This document shows, piece after piece, positions 22,312-31,214 of a stretch of 37,408 bases of DNA; position 1 is the stretch's first letter; each line of letters starts with the position of its first letter. The notes below the pieces were generated by a model that searched no databases, was not told the DNA's origin, and saw only the letters and a program-made list of their open reading frames with translations. The stretch covers positions 1 to 37,408 of the forward strand of contig CASETM010000088.1 of assembly GCA_949290865.1 (NCBI GenBank), in the 5' to 3' direction. The stretch comes from an uncultured Bacillota bacterium. GTDB lineage: Bacteria > Bacillota_I > Bacilli_A > Erysipelotrichales > Coprobacillaceae. A program made the position numbers and the translations under genes.

Positions 22312-23418
22312 ATGAAGCAATTGGAAAATAAAAAAAAATATATAGCAATTATTGTCGTTGCTGTTATTATCATTCTGATTTATAAAAATATCGACAGTCA
22401 CTTTTTTGATATGATATATAGTGCCTTTTTACCGGTGATTATTGGTGGTATTCTGGCATATTTTTTACAGCCTATCGTTTATCTTATGGAAATGCGGATC
22501 GATGCTATCAAAGATGGCAAGTTTTCAAAGATTAGCCATACGATTTCTTCTATTACGGTTTTTATTCTGTTTATGATGATCATTGTGGCTTTACTGGTAT
22601 TATGTGTTCCAGCACTTCTGGATTATATCGTGAATATTTCTGAAAATATCGGTGTATATAAAACAAGTTTTGAAAAATCGATTGTTGATACTTTTGGCAA
22701 CAATATGTTCAGTCAGACTGTTGTTGATTGCGGACTGGCCTTGATTAACAACATGAGCATGATTGAGCCGGTTAATCCAATGGATACGATCGATACTGTT
22801 TTTCAGACTGGAAGTAAGCTGATTACATTGCTGATTGGTCTGATTTTCACACCTTATTGCCTGATTGAAGCGAAAAGACTGGTTTCGATTTTTGATCGAT
22901 TGCTAGGATTGTTTATTTCTGATAAAAGTATTGCATTAATTCATGGTTATACCTTTAAGGTTCATCATATTTTTGGCAGATTTATCTATGGTAAGTTTTT
23001 AGATTCGCTGATTATTGGTTTGATTGCCTTTGTTGGTTTAGGACTTATGGGCATTGAGTACTTCCCATTGCTGGCAGGATTTATTCTGATTACCAATATG
23101 ATTCCTTATTTTGGACCGTTTATTGGAGGAATACCAGCGGTGCTGGTCGCTTTGATAACTGGAGATTTACTGACTGCACTGTCAACGATGCTGTTTGTCT
23201 TTGTTTTACAGCAATTTGATGGATTGTTCTTAGGACCTAAGATCTTAGGGGATGTCGTAGGTATTTCTCCATTCTGGGTGTTATTTTCTATCACGGTTTT
23301 TGGCAGTCTGTTTGGATTTATTGGGATGTTTTTGGGAGTACCAATCATTTGTGTTATACGTATGTTTTTCAACGATTATATTGAATATCGAAAAGATAAA
23401 GAGAAAGCAACGGGATAA
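22312..23418 (+). CDS. AI-2E family permease (PerM/YdbI-like)
   Basis: Polytopic membrane protein of 368 residues in the AI-2E transporter family, whose members export small molecules or move ions. An N-terminal pair of helices (YIAIIVVAVIIILIY and AFLPVIIGGILAYFLQPIVYLM), a long central amphipathic part, and a C-terminal bundle are typical. The family block around ILITNMIPYFGPFIGGIPAVLVAL and QFDGLFLGPKILGDVVGISPFWVLFSI is clear. The AI-2 link comes from one E. coli member; the true substrate here is unknown. GAAAGGG precedes the ATG, and the gene ends in a terminator just before a tRNA. Confidence 0.87.
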   Translation: MKQLENKKKYIAIIVVAVIIILIYKNIDSHFFDMIYSAFLPVIIGGILAYFLQPIVYLMEMRIDAIKDGKFSKISHTISSITVFILFMMIIVALLVLCVPALLDYIVNISENIGVYKTSFEKSIVDTFGNNMFSQTVVDCGLALINNMSMIEPVNPMDTIDTVFQTGSKLITLLIGLIFTPYCLIEAKRLVSIFDRLLGLFISDKSIALIHGYTFKVHHIFGRFIYGKFLDSLIIGLIAFVGLGLMGIEYFPLLAGFILITNMIPYFGPFIGGIPAVLVALITGDLLTALSTMLFVFVLQQFDGLFLGPKILGDVVGISPFWVLFSITVFGSLFGFIGMFLGVPIICVIRMFFNDYIEYRKDKEKATG

Positions 23419-23431
23419 GTTGCTTTTTTTT
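23404..23431 (+). terminator. Terminator after the AI-2E permease gene
   Basis: AAAGCAAC (23404-23411) pairs with GTTGCTTT (23419-23426) followed by T's. Confidence 0.85.
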
Positions 23432-23468
23432 ATGAATAATGCTAGGATATATCATGTAATTTCTATAT

Positions 23469-23545
23469 GTCCACGTAGCTCAGCTGGATAGAGCACACGC
23501 CTCCTAAGCGTGGGGTCGGAGGTTCAAATCCTCTCGCGGACGCCA
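23469..23545 (+). tRNA. tRNA-Arg (anticodon CCT)
   Basis: A full cloverleaf can be drawn: acceptor GTCCACG/CGCGGAC, D-stem GCTC/GAGC, anticodon stem CACGC/GCGTG around the loop CTCCTAA (anticodon CCT, reading AGG), a 5-base variable loop, T-stem GGAGG/CCTCT with TTCAAAT loop, discriminator G and an encoded CCA. The acceptor stem has one A5-C68 mismatch where a G-C pair would be expected. It sits at the left edge of a segment of foreign composition; tRNA-Arg genes are frequent integration sites. Confidence 0.93.
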
Positions 23546-23554
23546 TGAAAATTC

Positions 23555-23597
23555 CGTCGAAAGCATTGTCTTTGATATACTTTCGGCGTTTTCTTTT
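23555..23597 (+). terminator. Terminator after tRNA-Arg
   Basis: CGTCGAAAG (23555-23563) pairs with CTTTCGGCG (23580-23588, one T-G wobble), followed by TTTTCTTTT. Confidence 0.75.
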
Positions 23598-23761
23598 GTT
23601 TAAAAAAGATCATTTTTATTGATGGGAATGAAGAGACAAGGGAAAGTAGATTAACTGGTTTTAAAATAGTGTAAGAAAGGATATGGCATATTTATATGAA
23701 TAATTCTTAAGTTGAAATTAGGATCAGCTTCTCATGAATGAAATAAAATATATTCATTCTC
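23598..23761. other. Non-coding stretch at the island's left edge
   Basis: AT-rich sequence between the tRNA terminator and the TetR promoter. I see no gene, repeat of the tRNA end, or recombinase remnant in it. Confidence 0.5.
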
Positions 23762-23790
23762 TTGACAAAATCTTTTTTTAATATTAAACT
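23762..23790 (+). promoter_or_regulatory. Promoter of the TetR regulator gene
   Basis: A consensus -35 (TTGACA, 23762-23767) and TAAACT (23785-23790) separated by 17 bp. The tandem operator follows immediately, so bound repressor would block the start site. Confidence 0.65.
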
Positions 23791-23818
23791 TATAACAGTG
23801 TTATATAACAATGTTATA
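23791..23818. promoter_or_regulatory. Tandem overlapping palindromic operator
   Basis: Two 15-bp palindromes of the form TATAACA-N-TGTTATA lie at 23791-23805 (centre G) and 23804-23818 (centre A), sharing two bases, so the repeat period is 13 bp. Both half-sites of each copy are perfect. They occupy the space between the -10 element and the ribosome-binding site (GGAGG, 23821-23825) of the TetR gene, which suggests autorepression by two repressor dimers. Confidence 0.7.
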
Positions 23819-23833
23819 TAGGAGGTGTGCAAA

Positions 23834-24448
23834 ATAAACGGAAATGGAACGACTTTAGAAAACATCCATCGGGCAGCGAAAGTGGAATTTTTAGAAAAAG
23901 GATATAAAGATGCTTCTTTGCGAAATATTGTAAAATCCGTGGGAATGACTACCGGAGCCTTTTATGGATATTACAAAAGTAAAGAAGAACTTTTTGAGGC
24001 TATCGTAGGTGAGCATTACGAATATATTCTCAACCGTTTTATAAAGGCACAGCAGGAGTTTGCCGAGCTTCCAGCCGTGCAGCAGCCAGAAGTTATGAGT
24101 GACATTTCGGGTATTTGTATGTATGATATGCTTCATTATGCGTATGAACATTTAGAGGAATGTAAACTCATCCTCTGCTGTTCGGAAGGAACGAAATTTG
24201 CTGGGCTTATTGATGAAATGGTGGAGATTGAGGTAGATGGGACACATGCCTATCAGGATGTCTTAAGGAAGCTTGGTAAGCCTTCCCCCAAGATTGATCC
24301 TACTCTTGAACATATTCTGATCACCGGAATGTTTCATACTTTTTTTGAACTAATCGTACACGAAATGCCGCTCAAAGATGCCGAAAACTACGTTAAAGAA
24401 ATGCGCGCCTTTTATACAGCAGGATGGATGAAAATTATGGGGCAGTAA
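23834..24448 (+). CDS. TetR-family transcriptional regulator with uncertain start
   Basis: One-component repressor of about 205 residues. The N-terminal helix-turn-helix reads ENIHRAAKVEFLEKGYKDASLRNIVKSVGMTTGAFYGYYKSKEELFEAIV, a textbook TetR domain; the rest is a helical ligand-binding and dimer domain. The frame is open from a GTG at 23825, but that codon overlaps the GGAGG site and cannot be the start. Eight bases after GGAGGT the frame has ATA (23834), exactly where a start is expected, giving (M)NGNGTTLENIHRAA. No in-frame ATG, GTG or TTG occurs before the HTH. So the start may be a rare ATA, or the gene has lost its start. It precedes and probably controls the ABC pair. Confidence 0.8.
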   Translation: MNGNGTTLENIHRAAKVEFLEKGYKDASLRNIVKSVGMTTGAFYGYYKSKEELFEAIVGEHYEYILNRFIKAQQEFAELPAVQQPEVMSDISGICMYDMLHYAYEHLEECKLILCCSEGTKFAGLIDEMVEIEVDGTHAYQDVLRKLGKPSPKIDPTLEHILITGMFHTFFELIVHEMPLKDAENYVKEMRAFYTAGWMKIMGQ

Positions 24449-24470
24449 TGCCTTATAATTTTTACCAAAC

Positions 24471-24488
24471 AGTTAGTCTAGACTAACT
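24471..24488. promoter_or_regulatory. 18-bp perfect palindrome upstream of the ABC pair
   Basis: AGTTAGTCTAGACTAACT is a perfect palindrome followed by TAAAT. Its core GTTAG-N6-CTAACTTAAA recurs at 28154 before the methyltransferase block. It lies 11 bp after a TATAAT (24454-24459), so it may cover a transcription start. It has the TTAG-N6-CTAA spacing contained in the DtxR/IdeR iron box, though the inner bases differ. Confidence 0.55.
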
Positions 24489-24505
24489 TAAATTTGGATA
24501 TTGTT

Positions 24506-24523
24506 AGAACATAGACGTGTTCT
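24506..24523. repeat. Short inverted repeat in the ABC leader
   Basis: AGAACA (24506-24511) and TGTTCT (24518-24523) with a 6-base centre. It lacks a T-run, so it may be another binding site or a leader hairpin. Confidence 0.3.
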
Positions 24524-24558
24524 CTTTATCATAAACACAAAGAAAAGGAGGGATTTTT

Positions 24559-26331
24559 TTGAAAAAACAATCCAATTTATCACGGCTGCTAGAAATTGCA
24601 GGTAACCATAAGTATCTGACCTATGCTTCCTGGGGACTTTCTGCCATCAGTGCCCTGATTGCTCTGGTGCCATTCTATTGTATCTGGAAAATGATCAAGG
24701 AAGTATTGGATGTGGCACCAGATTTTGGTCAGGCACAGAACCTGACCAGCAATGGATGGATGGCAGTATTGTTTGCGATCATTGCATTGGTCGTTTACAT
24801 AGCTGGGCTTATGTGTTCCCACTTAGGAGCATTTCGTATCGCTACAAACCTGCGTATCCAGACCATGGAGCATATCGTTAAACTTCCTCTTGGGTTTGCC
24901 GAGAGTTTTGGCAGTGGAAAACTGCGCAAAATCGTCAACGAATCCAGCGCAGCCACCGAAACCTATCTCGCCCATCAGCTTCCCGACAGAGCCAATGCCA
25001 TTGCAACCCCCTGCGGTCTTTTGGTGCTGTTGTTCGTGTTTGACTGGAGACTGGGACTGTTGAGCCTTGTTCCGGTTGTGCTGGGCTTTCTGATCATGAT
25101 GGCAATGACCGGAAAGCAGATGCAGGAAAAGATGAAAGAATACCAGAATGCGCTGGATGATATGTCCAATGAAGCGGTAGAGTATGTCCGCGGTATTCCG
25201 GTCGTAAAAACATTTGGCCAGACGATCTTTTCCTTTAAGAAGTTTAAAGACTCCATTGACCGCTATAAAGTATGGGTGATCGCTTATACAAAGCAGCTTC
25301 GGACACCAATGATGTTTTATACAGCTGCGATCAACGGCGTTTTTGCCACACTGATCGCCGGAGGATTGTTGTTTGCACAAGACGGGGTGACTTCCGGTTT
25401 CTTACTGGATCTCATTTTCTATATCATTATTACGCCGGTTATTTCTGTTACACTGACACGCATCATGTTCCAAAGTGAAAATGCCATGATCGTAGACGAT
25501 GCTTTACAGAGAATTGACAGCATTTTGCATTTGAAGCCTCTGGCGGAAACGAAACATCCAAAGCATCCTCAGAACGCTTCCGTGGAACTGAAATCGGTTC
25601 ATTACAGCTATGATGGAGAAAAAGATGTATTAAAAGATATTTCACTGACCATTCCAGCTGGACAGACGGTAGCTTTTGTCGGTCCGTCCGGTGGTGGAAA
25701 GACAACGCTTGCCAACCTGATTTCCCGATTCTTTGATCCTCAAAGCGGAATGGTAAAAATCGGTGGTGTCAATGTAAAAGATATTCCAAAAGAGGAACTG
25801 ATGAACACAGTATCTTTCGTGTTTCAGAATAGCCGTCTGATCAAGGCGTCCATTTTGGAAAATGTGCGTATGGGAAAACCGGAAGCTACTCGTGAGGAAG
25901 TTCTGGCTGCCCTTCATCACGCGCAATGCGATGATATTCTGGAAAAACTCCCACAGGGTGCGGATACGGTCATCGGAACAAAAGGGGTCTATCTTTCCGG
26001 CGGCGAGCAGCAGCGAATTGCCATTGCTCGTGTAATGCTGAAAAATGCACCGATCATCATTCTGGATGAAGCCACTGCTTTTGCTGACCCAGATAACGAA
26101 AGCCGTGTACAGGCAGCTTTTACAAAACTTTCCGAGGGTAAAACGGTAATTATGATTGCCCATAGGCTTTCGACCATAACAAATGTGGATCAGATTTTTG
26201 TCATTTGCGACGGACAGGTTGCCGAGTGTGGCAACAGCCGCGAATTACTTGCAAAAGACGGCATTTTCAGCCGTATGTGGAAAAATTACCAGACTTCCGT
26301 GCAATGGAAGGTAACAAAGGAGGTGCAGTGA
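24559..26331 (+). CDS. ABC exporter-type half transporter, subunit A
   Basis: Fused membrane and ATPase protein of 590 residues: six helices in the first ~310 residues, then the nucleotide-binding domain. Walker A GPSGGGKTT starts at residue 375, the signature LSGGEQQR at 479, Walker B IIILDEATAF with D503 and E504, and the H-loop IAHRLST near 535. The D-loop region reads ADPDNE, a form I associate with the YbtP/YbtQ-IrtA/IrtB siderophore-importer group of exporter-fold transporters. The start is TTG at 24559, eight bases after AAGGAGGG. The following gene begins one base after the stop, so the two form a heterodimer. Substrate is unknown. Confidence 0.88.
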   Translation: MKKQSNLSRLLEIAGNHKYLTYASWGLSAISALIALVPFYCIWKMIKEVLDVAPDFGQAQNLTSNGWMAVLFAIIALVVYIAGLMCSHLGAFRIATNLRIQTMEHIVKLPLGFAESFGSGKLRKIVNESSAATETYLAHQLPDRANAIATPCGLLVLLFVFDWRLGLLSLVPVVLGFLIMMAMTGKQMQEKMKEYQNALDDMSNEAVEYVRGIPVVKTFGQTIFSFKKFKDSIDRYKVWVIAYTKQLRTPMMFYTAAINGVFATLIAGGLLFAQDGVTSGFLLDLIFYIIITPVISVTLTRIMFQSENAMIVDDALQRIDSILHLKPLAETKHPKHPQNASVELKSVHYSYDGEKDVLKDISLTIPAGQTVAFVGPSGGGKTTLANLISRFFDPQSGMVKIGGVNVKDIPKEELMNTVSFVFQNSRLIKASILENVRMGKPEATREEVLAALHHAQCDDILEKLPQGADTVIGTKGVYLSGGEQQRIAIARVMLKNAPIIILDEATAFADPDNESRVQAAFTKLSEGKTVIMIAHRLSTITNVDQIFVICDGQVAECGNSRELLAKDGIFSRMWKNYQTSVQWKVTKEVQ

Positions 26332-26332
26332 T

Positions 26333-28066
26333 ATGATCAAAAAACTGCAGAAAAAATATGCCCTGTCCAAACAGGGAGCAAAGGATCTGATTAAAGGCTG
26401 CCTGGCCTGTGTCCTTCAAAATCTGTCTTTTATGTTTCCAGTGGGACTTTTATATTACCTGGTCAGCGATCTGATGAACGGAGGTGTTCCCGGTAGGAAA
26501 ATTCCATTTTATGCGGCAGGCTGCATGGTGTGTATCGGCCTGATTCTGTTGACAACGTTCTTTCAATATAATGCGACCTATTTTGCTACCTATAAAGAAA
26601 GCGGTATCCGCCGCATTACTCTGGCGGAGCATCTGCGTAAGATCCCCCTCTCTTTTTTCGGGAAAAAGGATTTAGCCGATCTTACCAGTACGATTATGGC
26701 GGACTGCACCTTTCTGGAGCAGAGTTTTTCGCATTTTATCCCTGAACTTGCGGGTTCGATCATTTCTACGATTCTGATTTCCATCGGTCTGCTCTTTACG
26801 GACTGGAGAATGGCACTGGCTGCCTTATGGGTTCTGCCGGTTGCCTTTGCGATTGTGGGATTTTCTGCAAAGATTCAGGCAAATCTGAATCAAAAAGCGA
26901 TGGATGTGAAGATGGCCTGCGCAGACGGGATACAGGAGTGTATTGAAACGGTTCGTGATCTGAAAGCAAACAATGCGGAGCAGGCATATTTAAAAGGTCT
27001 GGAAAAGAAGATCCGTGCCGTGGAGCATCGTTCCATTCTCAATGAATTTGGTCTTGCTGCTTTTGTGGTTTCCGCATCATTGGTGCTGAGACTTGGTATT
27101 GCAACGGTTGCGCTGGTGGGAGCTGTTCTGCTCATGCAGGGGAGCCTTTCTGTACTTACGTTCTTTATGTTCCTTTTGGTGGTATCCCGTTTGTATGACC
27201 CGCTGCAGGGGGCACTCCAGAATCTTGCGGCAGTCATCAGTACCCGAACCAACATTGCCCGTATGAATGAGATTCTCGATCATCCCATCCAGCAGGGCAG
27301 CGACAGGCTTTCTAATCAGGGATATGATATTGTCTTTGACCATGTCGGGTTTGCCTATAATACCGGAGAAACTGTATTAAAAGATGTTTCCTTTACAGCA
27401 AAACAGGGAGAGGTAACGGCTTTGGTCGGCCCATCCGGCGGCGGAAAAACAACCGTATCTCGGCTGGCTGCCAGATTTTGGGATATTAACAGTGGAAAGA
27501 TTACCGTGGGAGGCATGGATATATCAAAAATAGACCCGGAAACACTGCTTTCTCTGTATTCCATCGTATTCCAGGATGTCATCCTGTTTGACAATACGAT
27601 TCTGGAAAATATCCGAATCGGAAACAAAGACGCCACAGATGAACAGGTCATTGCGGCTGCGAAACTTGCCAATGTGGATGAATTTGTCAAAAAACTGCCT
27701 CAAGGATGGCACACCAGTATCGGGGAAAATGGCTGTGAACTTTCCGGTGGAGAGCGCCAACGTATTTCCATTGCTCGCGCATTTCTGAAAAATGCGCCAA
27801 TCATTCTTTTGGATGAAGCGACTGCTTCCCTCGATGTGGAGAATGAAACTCTGATACAGACAGCCCTTTCCCGTTTGATTGCAGATAAAACCGTTCTGGT
27901 GATTGCTCATAGAATGCGTACCGTAGCCGGAGCAGATAAGATCGTTGTTCTTTCTGATGGCATCGTGGCAGAAGAAGGATTACCGAAGGATCTGGCAGAG
28001 AAAAATGGTGTGTATGCTCATATGGTAAAACTGCAGACAGAAAGCCAGAATTGGAAGCTTACGTGA
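26333..28066 (+). CDS. ABC exporter-type half transporter, subunit B
   Basis: Partner half transporter of 577 residues. Six membrane helices precede the ATPase domain, with Walker A GPSGGGKTT at residue 366, signature LSGGERQR at 470, Walker B IILLDEATASLD with D494/E495 and H-loop IAHRMRT. Unlike its partner it has the common D-loop SLDVENE. Both subunits keep all catalytic motifs, so both ATP sites look competent. AAGGAGG lies 9-10 bases before the ATG, inside the end of the upstream gene. After its stop, about 50 bp (to 28114) read as an orphan coding tail in another frame, perhaps left from a deleted gene. Confidence 0.88.
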   Translation: MIKKLQKKYALSKQGAKDLIKGCLACVLQNLSFMFPVGLLYYLVSDLMNGGVPGRKIPFYAAGCMVCIGLILLTTFFQYNATYFATYKESGIRRITLAEHLRKIPLSFFGKKDLADLTSTIMADCTFLEQSFSHFIPELAGSIISTILISIGLLFTDWRMALAALWVLPVAFAIVGFSAKIQANLNQKAMDVKMACADGIQECIETVRDLKANNAEQAYLKGLEKKIRAVEHRSILNEFGLAAFVVSASLVLRLGIATVALVGAVLLMQGSLSVLTFFMFLLVVSRLYDPLQGALQNLAAVISTRTNIARMNEILDHPIQQGSDRLSNQGYDIVFDHVGFAYNTGETVLKDVSFTAKQGEVTALVGPSGGGKTTVSRLAARFWDINSGKITVGGMDISKIDPETLLSLYSIVFQDVILFDNTILENIRIGNKDATDEQVIAAAKLANVDEFVKKLPQGWHTSIGENGCELSGGERQRISIARAFLKNAPIILLDEATASLDVENETLIQTALSRLIADKTVLVIAHRMRTVAGADKIVVLSDGIVAEEGLPKDLAEKNGVYAHMVKLQTESQNWKLT

Positions 28067-28153: not shown

Positions 28154-28174
28154 GTTAGCTATAACTAACTTAAA
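28154..28174. promoter_or_regulatory. Second copy of the GTTAG-N6-CTAACTTAAA motif
   Basis: GTTAG-CTATAA-CTAACTTAAA (28154-28174) matches the site at 24472 in both arms and the downstream TTAAA, with a different centre. It ends about ten bases before the start codon of the first methyltransferase and adjoins its AAAGAGG ribosome-binding site, so a bound protein would block transcription or translation. Confidence 0.5.
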
Positions 28175-28184
28175 GAGGCGGATT

Positions 28185-29039
28185 ATGAACAAATATACAA
28201 TTAAAAAGAATTCATTACAGGAAACATTGATCATTCCATTATACGCCCGATGGCTCTGTTCGCAGAAATTTTCCGAATTGTTTCAGGATAAAACAGCCGA
28301 GGAGTTAATTAAAAAAGTAGATTATGACTTTTCTGCATTAGAAAAACAATCGGAAAGTATCATACATAGTTTTGGAGCATTGGAAGTAGCCATGCGCCAA
28401 AATGATCTCGCATGGGAAATACGGGACTATCTCCACCAACATCCAAAAGCTGCGGTCATTAATCTTGGTTGTGGACTGGACAACACCGGACGAGTGTGCG
28501 ACAACGGTCACTGCCATATCTGGAATATTGACCTGCCGGATGTGATTGCGCTGCGGAATCAATTGCTTCCTGCCGGAGAGCGGGAAGAAAATCTGGCATT
28601 TGATTTAACAGATCCGAATTGGATGAAAGCTATCCGGTTTGATCCTGAGGATGGGGCAGTCATGTTTGCTGCGGGTGTATTCTACTATTTTACTACAAAC
28701 CAGATGAAGCAGTTGGTTAAGGCAATGGCCGAACATTTTCCGGGAGGACGTCTGGTTTTTGATGCAGCAGGCAAAACCGCTGTCAAACTAATGCTGAAAA
28801 CCTGGGTAAAACAGGCGGGGATCAAGGATGTTGGTGCATATTTCTCTGTAAAGGATGCCAAAGGAGAGCTGGAGTGTTGGTCACCTCTGCTCTCTGTTTC
28901 CAGCTGCGGGTATATGCAGGGCTATCAGAAGTTGGAGGGGCCGGGAGTAAGATTCATTCATCGCCTTCTGGCTAAAATAGCCGACGGACCGTTGCATTTG
29001 CAGATTATACGAGTACGTTTTAAGGAGAAAACTGAATGA
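28185..29039 (+). CDS. SAM methyltransferase, leucine-carboxyl-methyltransferase/TcmP-like (copy 1)
   Basis: Class I methyltransferase of 284 residues. An N-terminal helical part with the LCM-family segment IIPLYARWLCSQKF and GALEVAMRQND precedes motif I NLGCGLDNTG at about 93-101. Next come WNIDLPDVIALR (acidic SAM ribose contact) and AGVFYYF. The family methylates carboxyl or hydroxyl groups, as in TcmP of tetracenomycin synthesis, but the acceptor here is not visible. It is clearly paralogous to the gene at 30408 (matching GCGL, CDNG, DLP-VI--R--LLP--ER). It opens the methyltransferase block, with its own motif copy upstream, and its stop overlaps the next start (ATGA). Confidence 0.82.
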   Translation: MNKYTIKKNSLQETLIIPLYARWLCSQKFSELFQDKTAEELIKKVDYDFSALEKQSESIIHSFGALEVAMRQNDLAWEIRDYLHQHPKAAVINLGCGLDNTGRVCDNGHCHIWNIDLPDVIALRNQLLPAGEREENLAFDLTDPNWMKAIRFDPEDGAVMFAAGVFYYFTTNQMKQLVKAMAEHFPGGRLVFDAAGKTAVKLMLKTWVKQAGIKDVGAYFSVKDAKGELECWSPLLSVSSCGYMQGYQKLEGPGVRFIHRLLAKIADGPLHLQIIRVRFKEKTE

Positions 29040-29548
29040 ACTGGATGCAAACGATATTAGACGGATTTGCTATGGCAGCCTATTTTAATTTATTTGCTGC
29101 TGCCGTGGCACTGTACAATCCCCGACTGATGTGCCCCAGCTATCTGCATGCTATTATCAAGAATGCTTCGGAACCGCTCTCAAAAGCGGAGAATCGCTTT
29201 TACTGGCTATGGACCTTTTTAGGAGAGCTTCTGCCCCTCTTGCTCTATGGGACATTGAGCGTAGTGGAAGGCGGCACTCATGGATTTTGGCAGATGGCAC
29301 TGACAGGATACATCCAGTGGATGATGATAAACGTGTGCGATCAGTTTTTTCTGGATATCTTTCTCATCCAGAAAAAGGCAAAACACCGTTTTATGATTCC
29401 TGGTACGGAAGGGCATCCTGGCTATGGGTTCAAAGCGTGGATGAAAAGTTACGCATTGCCGGAGCATCTGTTGCAATGGTCATTGATCCTTTGTCCCCTG
29501 ATGGCAACGGTGCAGGCTGGGATAGGAGTATTGTTGATGAGATTATAA
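29036..29548 (+). CDS. Membrane protein of the methyltransferase cluster, unknown function
   Basis: Not recognised. The 170-residue protein has about four hydrophobic segments: near 8-27 (DGFAMAAYFNLFAAAVALY), 55-77 (FYWLWTFLGELLPLLLYGTLSVV), 84-111 (FWQMALTGYIQWMMINVCDQFFLDIFLI) and 144-168 (EHLLQWSLILCPLMATVQAGIGVLL). The loop RFMIPGTEGHPGYGFKAWMKSYALPEH has conserved-looking His, Gly and aromatic residues. It overlaps the upstream methyltransferase by four bases and lies 19 bases before the next, so it is an integral member of the operon. It could present or transport the methylated product, but that is inference. Confidence 0.7.
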   Translation: MNWMQTILDGFAMAAYFNLFAAAVALYNPRLMCPSYLHAIIKNASEPLSKAENRFYWLWTFLGELLPLLLYGTLSVVEGGTHGFWQMALTGYIQWMMINVCDQFFLDIFLIQKKAKHRFMIPGTEGHPGYGFKAWMKSYALPEHLLQWSLILCPLMATVQAGIGVLLMRL

Positions 29549-29567
29549 ATATAGAGGAGATAATGTA

Positions 29568-30383
29568 ATGAATAAAAAAGAATTAAAACAGGAGAATATT
29601 CGACTTGGGACTCACGGGGAAGACTATGGAAGCTGGATGTCTAACCCTGTCTTTTACATCATTGGCGGAATCGGAATTTTGGCTGCTGTACTTGCTGTTC
29701 TCTCTTTTTATGTATTTCGTGTCGCTGTTCTTGGTATTTTGTTTGCTGTTATCACAATTGCACTTGTAGTTTTGCTGATCTGGATCACATGGATCAGACG
29801 GCAGTATGCTTTTGGTGGTGGCGGAATCATGGAACAGGTTCATCGGGTCATCCTCTCTCATTTGGATTATGACGGTGATGGAAAGATTTTGGAAGTTGGC
29901 TGCGGCTCCGGAGCACTGACAATCCGTGCGGCTCTGACATGGCCGAAAGCAAAAGTAATCGGTATTGATTATTGGGGCGCTGTGTACAATTACAGCAAGG
30001 CACTTTGCGAGAAAAATGCAACCAGTGAGGGCGTGGCTTCACGTTGTGTATTCCAGCACGGTGACGCGAAACAATTGGATTTTCCTGATGAGAGCTTTGA
30101 TGTCGTTATCAGCAATTATGTCTATCATAATATCATAGGTGCTGATATGCATAAACTGCTGCTGGAAAGCCTGCGGGTATTGAAAAAAGGTGGTATTTTT
30201 GTACTCAATGATGATATGAAACCAAAACTGTATGGTGATATGGATGCTTTTGCACAGCAGCTGCGGGATATGGGGTATCAGGATGTTCGTCTTGTTGATA
30301 CGGCACAAGAAGTCTTTGGTTCTCATCGCCGAGCTGCAATGATGATGTTAGGATCTTCCAGACTCCTGGTGGGACGGAAATAA
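29568..30383 (+). CDS. Membrane-anchored SAM methyltransferase (UbiE-like)
   Basis: Class I methyltransferase of 271 residues with two N-terminal membrane helices (about 28-50 and 52-75), then a cytoplasmic catalytic domain. Motif I ILEVGCGSGALT is at about 107-118; GIDYWG is the acidic ribose contact, DAKQLDFPDESFDVVISNYVYHNI contains motifs II and III. GVLKKGG-like RVLKKGGIFVLNDD follows. The fold resembles UbiE/Coq5 and the group annotated as Methyltransf_11. The membrane anchor suggests a hydrophobic or membrane-bound substrate. GAGG lies before the ATG, 19 bases after the membrane protein gene. Confidence 0.83.
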   Translation: MNKKELKQENIRLGTHGEDYGSWMSNPVFYIIGGIGILAAVLAVLSFYVFRVAVLGILFAVITIALVVLLIWITWIRRQYAFGGGGIMEQVHRVILSHLDYDGDGKILEVGCGSGALTIRAALTWPKAKVIGIDYWGAVYNYSKALCEKNATSEGVASRCVFQHGDAKQLDFPDESFDVVISNYVYHNIIGADMHKLLLESLRVLKKGGIFVLNDDMKPKLYGDMDAFAQQLRDMGYQDVRLVDTAQEVFGSHRRAAMMMLGSSRLLVGRK

Positions 30384-30407
30384 TGTCACGATAATGGAGG
30401 ATTGGTT

Positions 30408-31214
30408 ATGCAAACATTAGGTATTGTGGAGGATACTCTGTTTGTCCCTATGCTGGGCAGAATCTATGCCAGTGAGCATTGCCCGCAGATTTTATATGAT
30501 AAAAAAGCACTGGAATTGAAAAATAAGCTGCCCTCAGACCTGATTGCACTGAATAAGCAGAACCAGTATACCCTTTTGGCTTCTGCCTCCAGGTCCGCCA
30601 ATATGGATCGGTTCATTCGATCTTTTCTGGAACGAAGGCCAAACGGGGTGATTGTTCAGCTGGGCTGTGGTCTGGAGACAACTTATTACCGCTGTGATAA
30701 CGGAAGGACACGCTGGTATGCTGTGGATCTGCCTCATGTAATCGAATACCGGCGAACACTTCTTCCTGAATCAGAGCGGGAATGCTATATTTCCGGGGAT
30801 GCCTTTGTGATAGACTGGATCAAAAAAGTCCGCAATGATGTGCCAGATGCTCCTATTCTCGTTACCGCAGGTGGACTATTCCATTATTTTGAGGAAAATA
30901 AGGTCATTTCCCTTCTGCGTATGATCAGACAGTCAGGAAATATGGAAGTTGTTTTTGATACTGTGAACAAAAAAGGGATGGCTATGATGCAAAAGAAGTA
31001 CATGAAGCAGGTAGGCCATGGTGATGCGCAGATGTTCTTTTATGTGGATGCAGCAAGAGAACTGGCAGCAAAGATTGGGGATGATGTGAAGGTGATTGCG
31101 GAGGAATCTTATTATCGTTACATTCCTAAAAACGGCTTAAAGCTCTCCACAAAGGTCAGTATGGCGGTTTCTGATCGTTTCAAAATGGTAAAGATGATAC
31201 AGTTGAAGTTATAA
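30408..31214 (+). CDS. SAM methyltransferase, leucine-carboxyl-methyltransferase/TcmP-like (copy 2)
   Basis: Paralogue of the gene at 28185, 268 residues. Motif I is QLGCGLETT near 84-91, then YYRCDNGRTRWYAVDLPHVIEYRRTLLPESER, closely tracking copy 1, and TAGGLFHYF in place of AAGVFYYF. The N-terminus is more divergent. The ATG at 30408 is seven bases after GGAGG; an in-frame TTG at 30402 is too close. It is the last gene of the block. No terminator is obvious after it, only AT-rich sequence. Two divergent copies suggest two methylation steps on related acceptors, or a heterodimer. Confidence 0.8.
   Translation: MQTLGIVEDTLFVPMLGRIYASEHCPQILYDKKALELKNKLPSDLIALNKQNQYTLLASASRSANMDRFIRSFLERRPNGVIVQLGCGLETTYYRCDNGRTRWYAVDLPHVIEYRRTLLPESERECYISGDAFVIDWIKKVRNDVPDAPILVTAGGLFHYFEENKVISLLRMIRQSGNMEVVFDTVNKKGMAMMQKKYMKQVGHGDAQMFFYVDAARELAAKIGDDVKVIAEESYYRYIPKNGLKLSTKVSMAVSDRFKMVKMIQLKL

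Follow-up and report, generated by a model that had tools for sequence, protein, structure and literature searches.

What acts on the 28 bp of DNA that carry two overlapping palindromes at the start of a predicted tetR gene? In the window, by which we mean the whole 37,408-nucleotide stretch of DNA that was analysed, two 15-bp perfect palindromes of the form TATAACA-N-TGTTATA are present at 23791-23805 and 23804-23818 with a period of 13 bp, just as the original prediction had claimed. Each consists of 7-bp arms around one central base, and the two share 2 bp, TA, at 23804-23805. Their predicted placement between a -10 hexamer and a ribosome-binding site was also borne out, TTGACA-17-TAAACT lying upstream and AGGAGG downstream. 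The elements of this region are as follows.

23762-23767, plus strand: -35 hexamer of the tetR promoter, TTGACA; 78 of 81 loci have this exact hexamer 27-32 nt ahead of the operator unit
23785-23790, plus strand: -10 hexamer TAAACT, 17 bp from the -35; most relatives are TATAAT-like here
23791-23805, no strand: putative operator unit 1, TATAACAGTGTTATA, its central G being the predicted +1 within 1 nt
23804-23818, no strand: putative operator unit 2, TATAACAATGTTATA, centred 13 bp downstream of the centre of unit 1
23820-23825, plus strand: Shine-Dalgarno sequence AGGAGG
23834-23836, plus strand: likely start codon ATA (AUA), 8 nt after AGGAGG; ATA is found at the same place in 44 of 81 loci
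23834-24448, plus strand: predicted TetR-family autoregulator (Pfam TetR_N PF00440, 49.5 bits against a cut-off of 24)

The +1 was placed from the position of the -10. Since a promoter scan of the region returned 2 promoter-like sites against 4.0 in shuffles, the promoter call is based on place and conservation and not on the scan. We consider that the 28-bp element is, with a probability of about 0.77, the autoregulatory operator of the TetR repressor encoded at 23834-24448, composed of two abutting 13-bp units; the sequence comparisons on which this reading is based are set out below.

Single sites of this kind are not exceptional. In the window, no match other than the two exact copies has fewer than two mismatches, and at up to three mismatches there are 6 matches versus 4.11 expected. 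Across the organism's own 2.33-Mb genome, the tandem copies are the only two places within one mismatch, while a reversed control pattern gives four, so that there is no enrichment of single sites. The tandem arrangement at this position, in contrast, is far from what chance would give. Within the fetched DNA of the 81 loci, which extends about 3 kb or less to either side of the gene, no second copy was found at up to seven mismatches of 26, nor was a further copy within one mismatch found in the own genome, which leaves the repressor's own promoter as the only visible target.

A scan of 84,980 genomes gave 264 stretches encoding a relative; the best 80 of these 264 (proteins 69-95% identical) were kept and, together with the window, make up a first set of 81 loci. 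Up to 160 nt upstream of the gene, the best pair of adjacent 13-mers had 0-4 misses at 20 scored positions, and 0-3 in all loci except one. The unit pattern, which was derived from the same 81 loci on which it was scored, fitted fully in 40 of them, with one mismatch in 28, two in eight, three in four and four in one. Among 1,620 dinucleotide shuffles the best score was four misses (reached once) and the mode was eight; none fell below four. A further set of mostly more distant loci played no part in choosing the pattern, and its search also permitted periods of 12, 14 and 15 bp. It started from 92 loci (L084-L109, L148-L213), from which 13 missed by the helix-turn-helix motif, 17 duplicates and two short ones were removed, leaving 60; weak partial matches (L110-L120) and matches without a fetched locus were excluded. 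A 13-bp period with at most two mismatches was found in 51 of the 60 and a 14-bp period in three, the six loci without a tandem by this criterion being L095, L175, L181, L195, L197 and L199. From the 13 loci that the motif had missed (L096-L102, L108, L109, L152-L155), only L100 (period 14), L102 and L109 (single palindrome in each) were read by eye in a usable orientation. A chance palindrome was rejected, the tandem being kept in 80 of 81 first-set and 51 of 60 further loci against the shuffles. In L081, L181 and L195, palindromes flank the -10, one on each side, instead of abutting after it.

Column counts over the 81 loci read ATAACAGTG[A/T]TAT for unit 1 and ATAAC[A/G]N[T/C]GTTAT for unit 2. 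G occupies the centre of unit 1 in 76 of the 81, while the centre of unit 2 is free; the position of the former on the predicted +1 may explain why G is kept there, and the conservation of unit 1 is partly explained by this overlap with the start point. The inner bases TATATA (operator positions 11-16) are near invariant, at 79-81 of 81 each. Position 10 is A in 50 of the 81 loci, so that the inner half of unit 1 is in most cases imperfect, and repressor binding there may be weaker. The exact symmetry that the original prediction saw in each half is true of the window but not general, perfect 6-bp arms in both units being found in 4 of the 81 close and 8 of the 60 further loci.

The number of dimers that bind here is the point on which the main alternative differs. 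One unit is a palindrome of 13-15 bp, which is the length of a single-dimer TetR site, and the operator with its two units spans 28 bp, long enough for two dimers. Two dimers, as first proposed, appear likely because two full units are kept at a fixed phase; the accompanying comparison to QacR is unsupported, and the geometry speaks against it. At 10.5 bp per turn, centres 13 bp apart are about 86 degrees from each other (by arithmetic only), which would set neighbouring dimers side by side. In dimer-of-dimers TetR structures, the dimers are 130-180 degrees from each other about the DNA, on operators of 28 bp (QacR), 32 bp (CgmR), 31 bp (Ms6564) and 22 bp (CprB), SlmA being a further case (PMC4150764). 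The present system resembles these in having a TetR-family regulator and an operator of about 28 bp, and CprB also regulates its own gene, but here the units are complete and head to tail, with a 13-bp spacing (14 bp in L104-L106) and the smaller angle. DarR is similar in that two dimers occupy overlapping palindromes of which one half-site may be imperfect, as the inner half of unit 1 often is here. However, its site is 20 bp long, with inter-dimer contacts and, in our own reading of the printed sequences, dimer centres only a few bp apart (PMC10636190).

Alternatively, a single dimer could bind, either on one unit or on the overall 26-bp dyad, with the other unit weak or auxiliary. We regard this as unlikely, though some of the data fit it: unit 1 is often imperfect as a palindrome, in 19 of the 81 loci the whole 26 bp form a dyad in which no more than one of the 13 pairs is mismatched, and some distant loci (L095, L102, L109) have a single clear palindrome. 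One dimer would not require both units to be kept at 13 bp, as they are in nearly all first-set and most further loci, and the near invariance of TATATA at the junction also argues against it.

Turning to the protein, its structural model (pLDDT 92) has an all-helical TetR-type fold. Among the 50 Foldseek matches listed were EthR, PfmR, GusR, FasR, MtrR and DarR, with E of about 1e-4 and TM of 0.38-0.60, values that suggest a ligand domain without a close relative; from the fold, no inducer could be inferred among these matches. In one relative, L011, tetR has an in-frame TAG after about 100 codons, yet the protein match runs past it. The recognition helix reads TTGAFY in 78 of 80 aligned first-set proteins (the truncated L011 left out). 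The exceptions, L039 and L040, read KTLGAFY, and these two are the only ones among the 81 loci with G at 4, G at 17 and C at 23 of the operator together, ATAAC/GTTAT becoming ATAGC/GCTAT in three of the four half-sites. Since L039 and L040 are sisters on the tree, this covariation counts as one event. Single changes occur with the ordinary TTGAFY helix (G at 17 in 11 and C at 23 in five other first-set loci; G at 4 in L183, L203, L204 and L211 of the further set), and 11 of 54 further-set tandem loci have at least one such half-site change, four of them at position 4. The link between helix and operator is thus at most weakly suggestive. One of the residues changed in L039/L040 aligns, in our own alignment on the shared SK motif, with DarR Lys44, which specifies a base in DarR-DNA structures (PMC10636190). 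The identification as a TetR operator, already made in the original prediction, is supported by the place of the tandem on the start point of a TetR_N gene, by its conservation and, weakly, by the joint change of helix and half-sites in L039/L040.

A second palindrome follows the gene, ahead of two transporter genes:

24425-24467, plus strand: terminator-like hairpin that spans the stop codon of tetR (-21.5 kcal/mol, z -7.6)
24471-24488, no strand: palindrome AGTTAGTCTAGACTAACT, probable DtxR/EqbA-type iron box, with GTTAG-N6-CTAAC at 24472-24487
24559-26331, plus strand: ABC half-transporter 1, YbtP/IrtA-like, with a TTG start
26333-28066, plus strand: ABC half-transporter 2, YbtQ-like
28154-28169, no strand: second probable iron box, GTTAGCTATAACTAAC, preceding the first methyltransferase gene

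The 3' end of tetR was compared in 79 loci (L011 and L048 left out). By a loose criterion, 71 of the 79 have a similar hairpin; in the window, a simple terminator scan did not report the one at 24425-24467. TTAG-N6-CTAA follows tetR in 77 of the 79 loci, its distance from the first stop-codon base being 25-27 nt in 74 of them, and occurs seven times in the remaining 398,785 nt of fetched DNA of these loci; in the further set the box is present in 53 of 59. In the organism's own genome, exact GTTAG-N6-CTAAC gives six sites versus two for the reversed control, and the 18-bp form with one mismatch allowed gives seven versus 15. One of the own-genome copies has two feoA genes on one side and, on the other, a gene with Fe_dep_repress and Fe_dep_repr_C domains; others are near enolase and ORFs without an evident iron role. 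Among 21 loci with such a site, one taken per genome, Feo genes adjoin the site in 8 (L128, L132-L136, L143 and L147, by eye), one gene having been Pfam-checked at seven of the eight and the eighth checked via L121. EqbA, a DtxR-like repressor of the equibactin ICE of Streptococcus equi, needs a palindrome for binding that contains GTTAGATGTATCTAAC, the same GTTAG-N6-CTAAC as at 24472-24487, and that likewise serves an iron-uptake locus (PMC3672683). That palindrome differs in being 36 bp long and in preceding NRPS genes, the rest of it is not common to the window, and the available text of the report describes no TetR operator at that locus (PMC3672683). From these sequence matches, the 24471 palindrome is probably a DtxR/EqbA-type iron box.

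That the 24471 palindrome is instead the true TetR operator, with the repeat at 23791 serving another regulator, is therefore very improbable. Both palindromes are conserved in the cassette and the one at 24471 precedes the transporter genes, as this idea would have it; however, the form of the palindrome recurs beside FeoA/FeoB genes, in the own genome with a DtxR-type gene and feoA as its neighbours, and inside the sequence that EqbA needs, so that it was disfavoured as a TetR operator and is better explained as an iron box. In L039/L040, moreover, this box stays GTTAG/CTAAC despite the changed helix. In L104-L106, distant relatives with the 14-bp period, a single promoter carries both an iron box and, behind it, the double operator, and in L105 and L106 an ABC gene directly follows tetR (by eye). 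The promoter scan found none for the ABC genes, also not between hairpin and iron box. Given this and the near-fixed distance of the box, either the hairpin would contain a weak promoter or polymerase coming from the tetR promoter would be blocked at the box.

Scarcely credible is a role of the repeat as RNA, in which a 5' leader hairpin would control translation of the repressor: a 9-pair hairpin is possible in the transcript immediately ahead of the Shine-Dalgarno sequence, but the fold energy of the leader is ordinary for its composition (z -0.34, equalled or bettered by 65 of 200 shuffles), the first unit begins upstream of the predicted +1, and at the gathering score Rfam gave no family in 23400-24700 besides the tRNA.

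The operator appears to be followed by an unusual initiation site. By sequence comparison, the start codon of tetR is likely AUA: ATA occupies the position that AGGAGG would direct in the window and in 43 of 80 relatives. In the window the reading frame is open from a GTG at 23825, which overlaps the Shine-Dalgarno sequence and has none of its own. This overlap disfavours the GTG as the start, yet an in-frame GTG at -9 recurs in 18 of the 44 ATA loci. Altogether, 20 of the 44 have an in-frame GTG (18) or ATG (2) at -9, inside or directly against the Shine-Dalgarno sequence, nine more have an upstream start candidate only at or inside the operator, and 15 have none between the predicted +1 and the ATA. 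Elsewhere in the 44 genes ATA makes up 39 of 573 Ile codons, and this rarity makes it unlikely that the conserved ATA is an internal Ile codon by chance. The 46-protein clade that includes the window (support 80) has 41 ATA, two ATG (L024, L037), two ATC (L010; L053, which has ATG two codons upstream) and one GCA (L052, no clear start), and its ATA hosts are as different as Roseburia, Emergencia and Faecalicoccus. Outside the clade, ATA is found in L039/L040, TTG in L047 and GTG in L073, and most others start one codon earlier or later. On a tree without L011, most of whose branches are weak, parsimony gives at least six changes between ATA and other states.

Predicted Shine-Dalgarno pairing is stronger in the 44 ATA loci (mean -12.8) than in 34 loci with canonical starts (mean -9.9 for 29 ATG, about -11.5 for four GTG and one TTG), with p = 1.3e-6 when relatedness is ignored and some doubtful assigned starts, such as that of L010, are included; L046, L052 and L066, in which no start codon was found, were left out. 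AUA starts with extended Shine-Dalgarno sequences are described for infC and ccpN of Staphylococcus aureus, where ribosome profiling showed both, and reporters also the latter, at about 10% of AUG and up to 30% in rich medium; the ccpN AUA start is conserved between S. aureus and B. subtilis (PMC13009471). The tetR gene would share with these an AUA start with an extended Shine-Dalgarno sequence in a regulatory gene, but their evidence is experimental whereas ours is by comparison only.

For the genes behind the iron box, half-transporter 1 scores 334.5 bits with YbtP, 285-305 with IrtA and 243 with SAV1866, and half-transporter 2 scores 288 with YbtQ and 274 with SAV1866, a thin margin. YbtPQ/IrtAB are thus the closest for the pair among half-transporters; full-length B-family transporters, which match over two stretches, outscore them for both. 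The iron box and the likeness to YbtPQ/IrtAB suggest metal-chelate import under iron control. Downstream of the ABC pair, 28185-31214 encodes two LCM-type methyltransferases, one of class I and a product with no Pfam match. Seven loci (L003-L008, L010), which come from Emergencia, Roseburia, [Ruminococcus] torques and others, share 91-92% identity with the window's DNA from 23759 (the -35) to at least 27444, near which the fetched loci end. When five other genomes of the window's genus were compared, G005 alone carried the ABC genes at 93%, G002-G004 having relatives at 63-70% and G001 (72% complete) none. Such identity across distant hosts, with patchy presence within the genus, points to horizontal transfer. 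The homology of the cassette begins at the -35, about 214 bp after a tRNA-Arg gene (23469-23545) that is a possible integration site. The only matches to mobile records were two to plasmids (36-46%) and two to faecal phage contigs (37-69%).

Under our preferred reading, each ATAAC-NNN-GTTAT unit would hold one repressor dimer. Unit 1 has its centre at the transcription start, and unit 2 follows at a distance of 13 bp, immediately ahead of the ribosome-binding site. The two dimers would sit side by side and block RNA polymerase at the start point until ligand binding to the repressor released it from the operator. The repressor is probably made sparingly, because its translation would start at AUA. 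Since the transporter genes carry a probable iron box of their own, the cassette would respond separately to iron, via a DtxR-type repressor, and to the ligand of the TetR protein. We interpret the cassette as an importer of a ferric siderophore or of a comparable metal chelate.

The operator is a variant of known TetR autoregulation. Among the literature matches listed, a scope outside which most subscription journals fall, there was no description of this operator or of this cassette, nor of an AUA-started TetR gene. With its sites abutting at 13 bp and not interleaved, the operator lends itself to testing how two TetR dimers are accommodated on such DNA, and natural variants are at hand in the period of 14, in units split around the -10 and in the changed helix and operator of L039/L040. 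Besides infC and ccpN, the tetR gene may be a further case of conserved AUA initiation, and one found across many gut species; start-codon callers limited to ATG, GTG and TTG would misplace its start. If the AUA start is true, it would make the repressor level sensitive to initiation factors or growth state, besides ligand and iron. In the cassette, a TetR input and a probable iron box come together on a single pair of transporters. With the odds about evenly balanced, two TetR dimers on the start point and a conserved AUA start may hold the repressor down twice in horizontally spread, iron-linked ABC cassettes.
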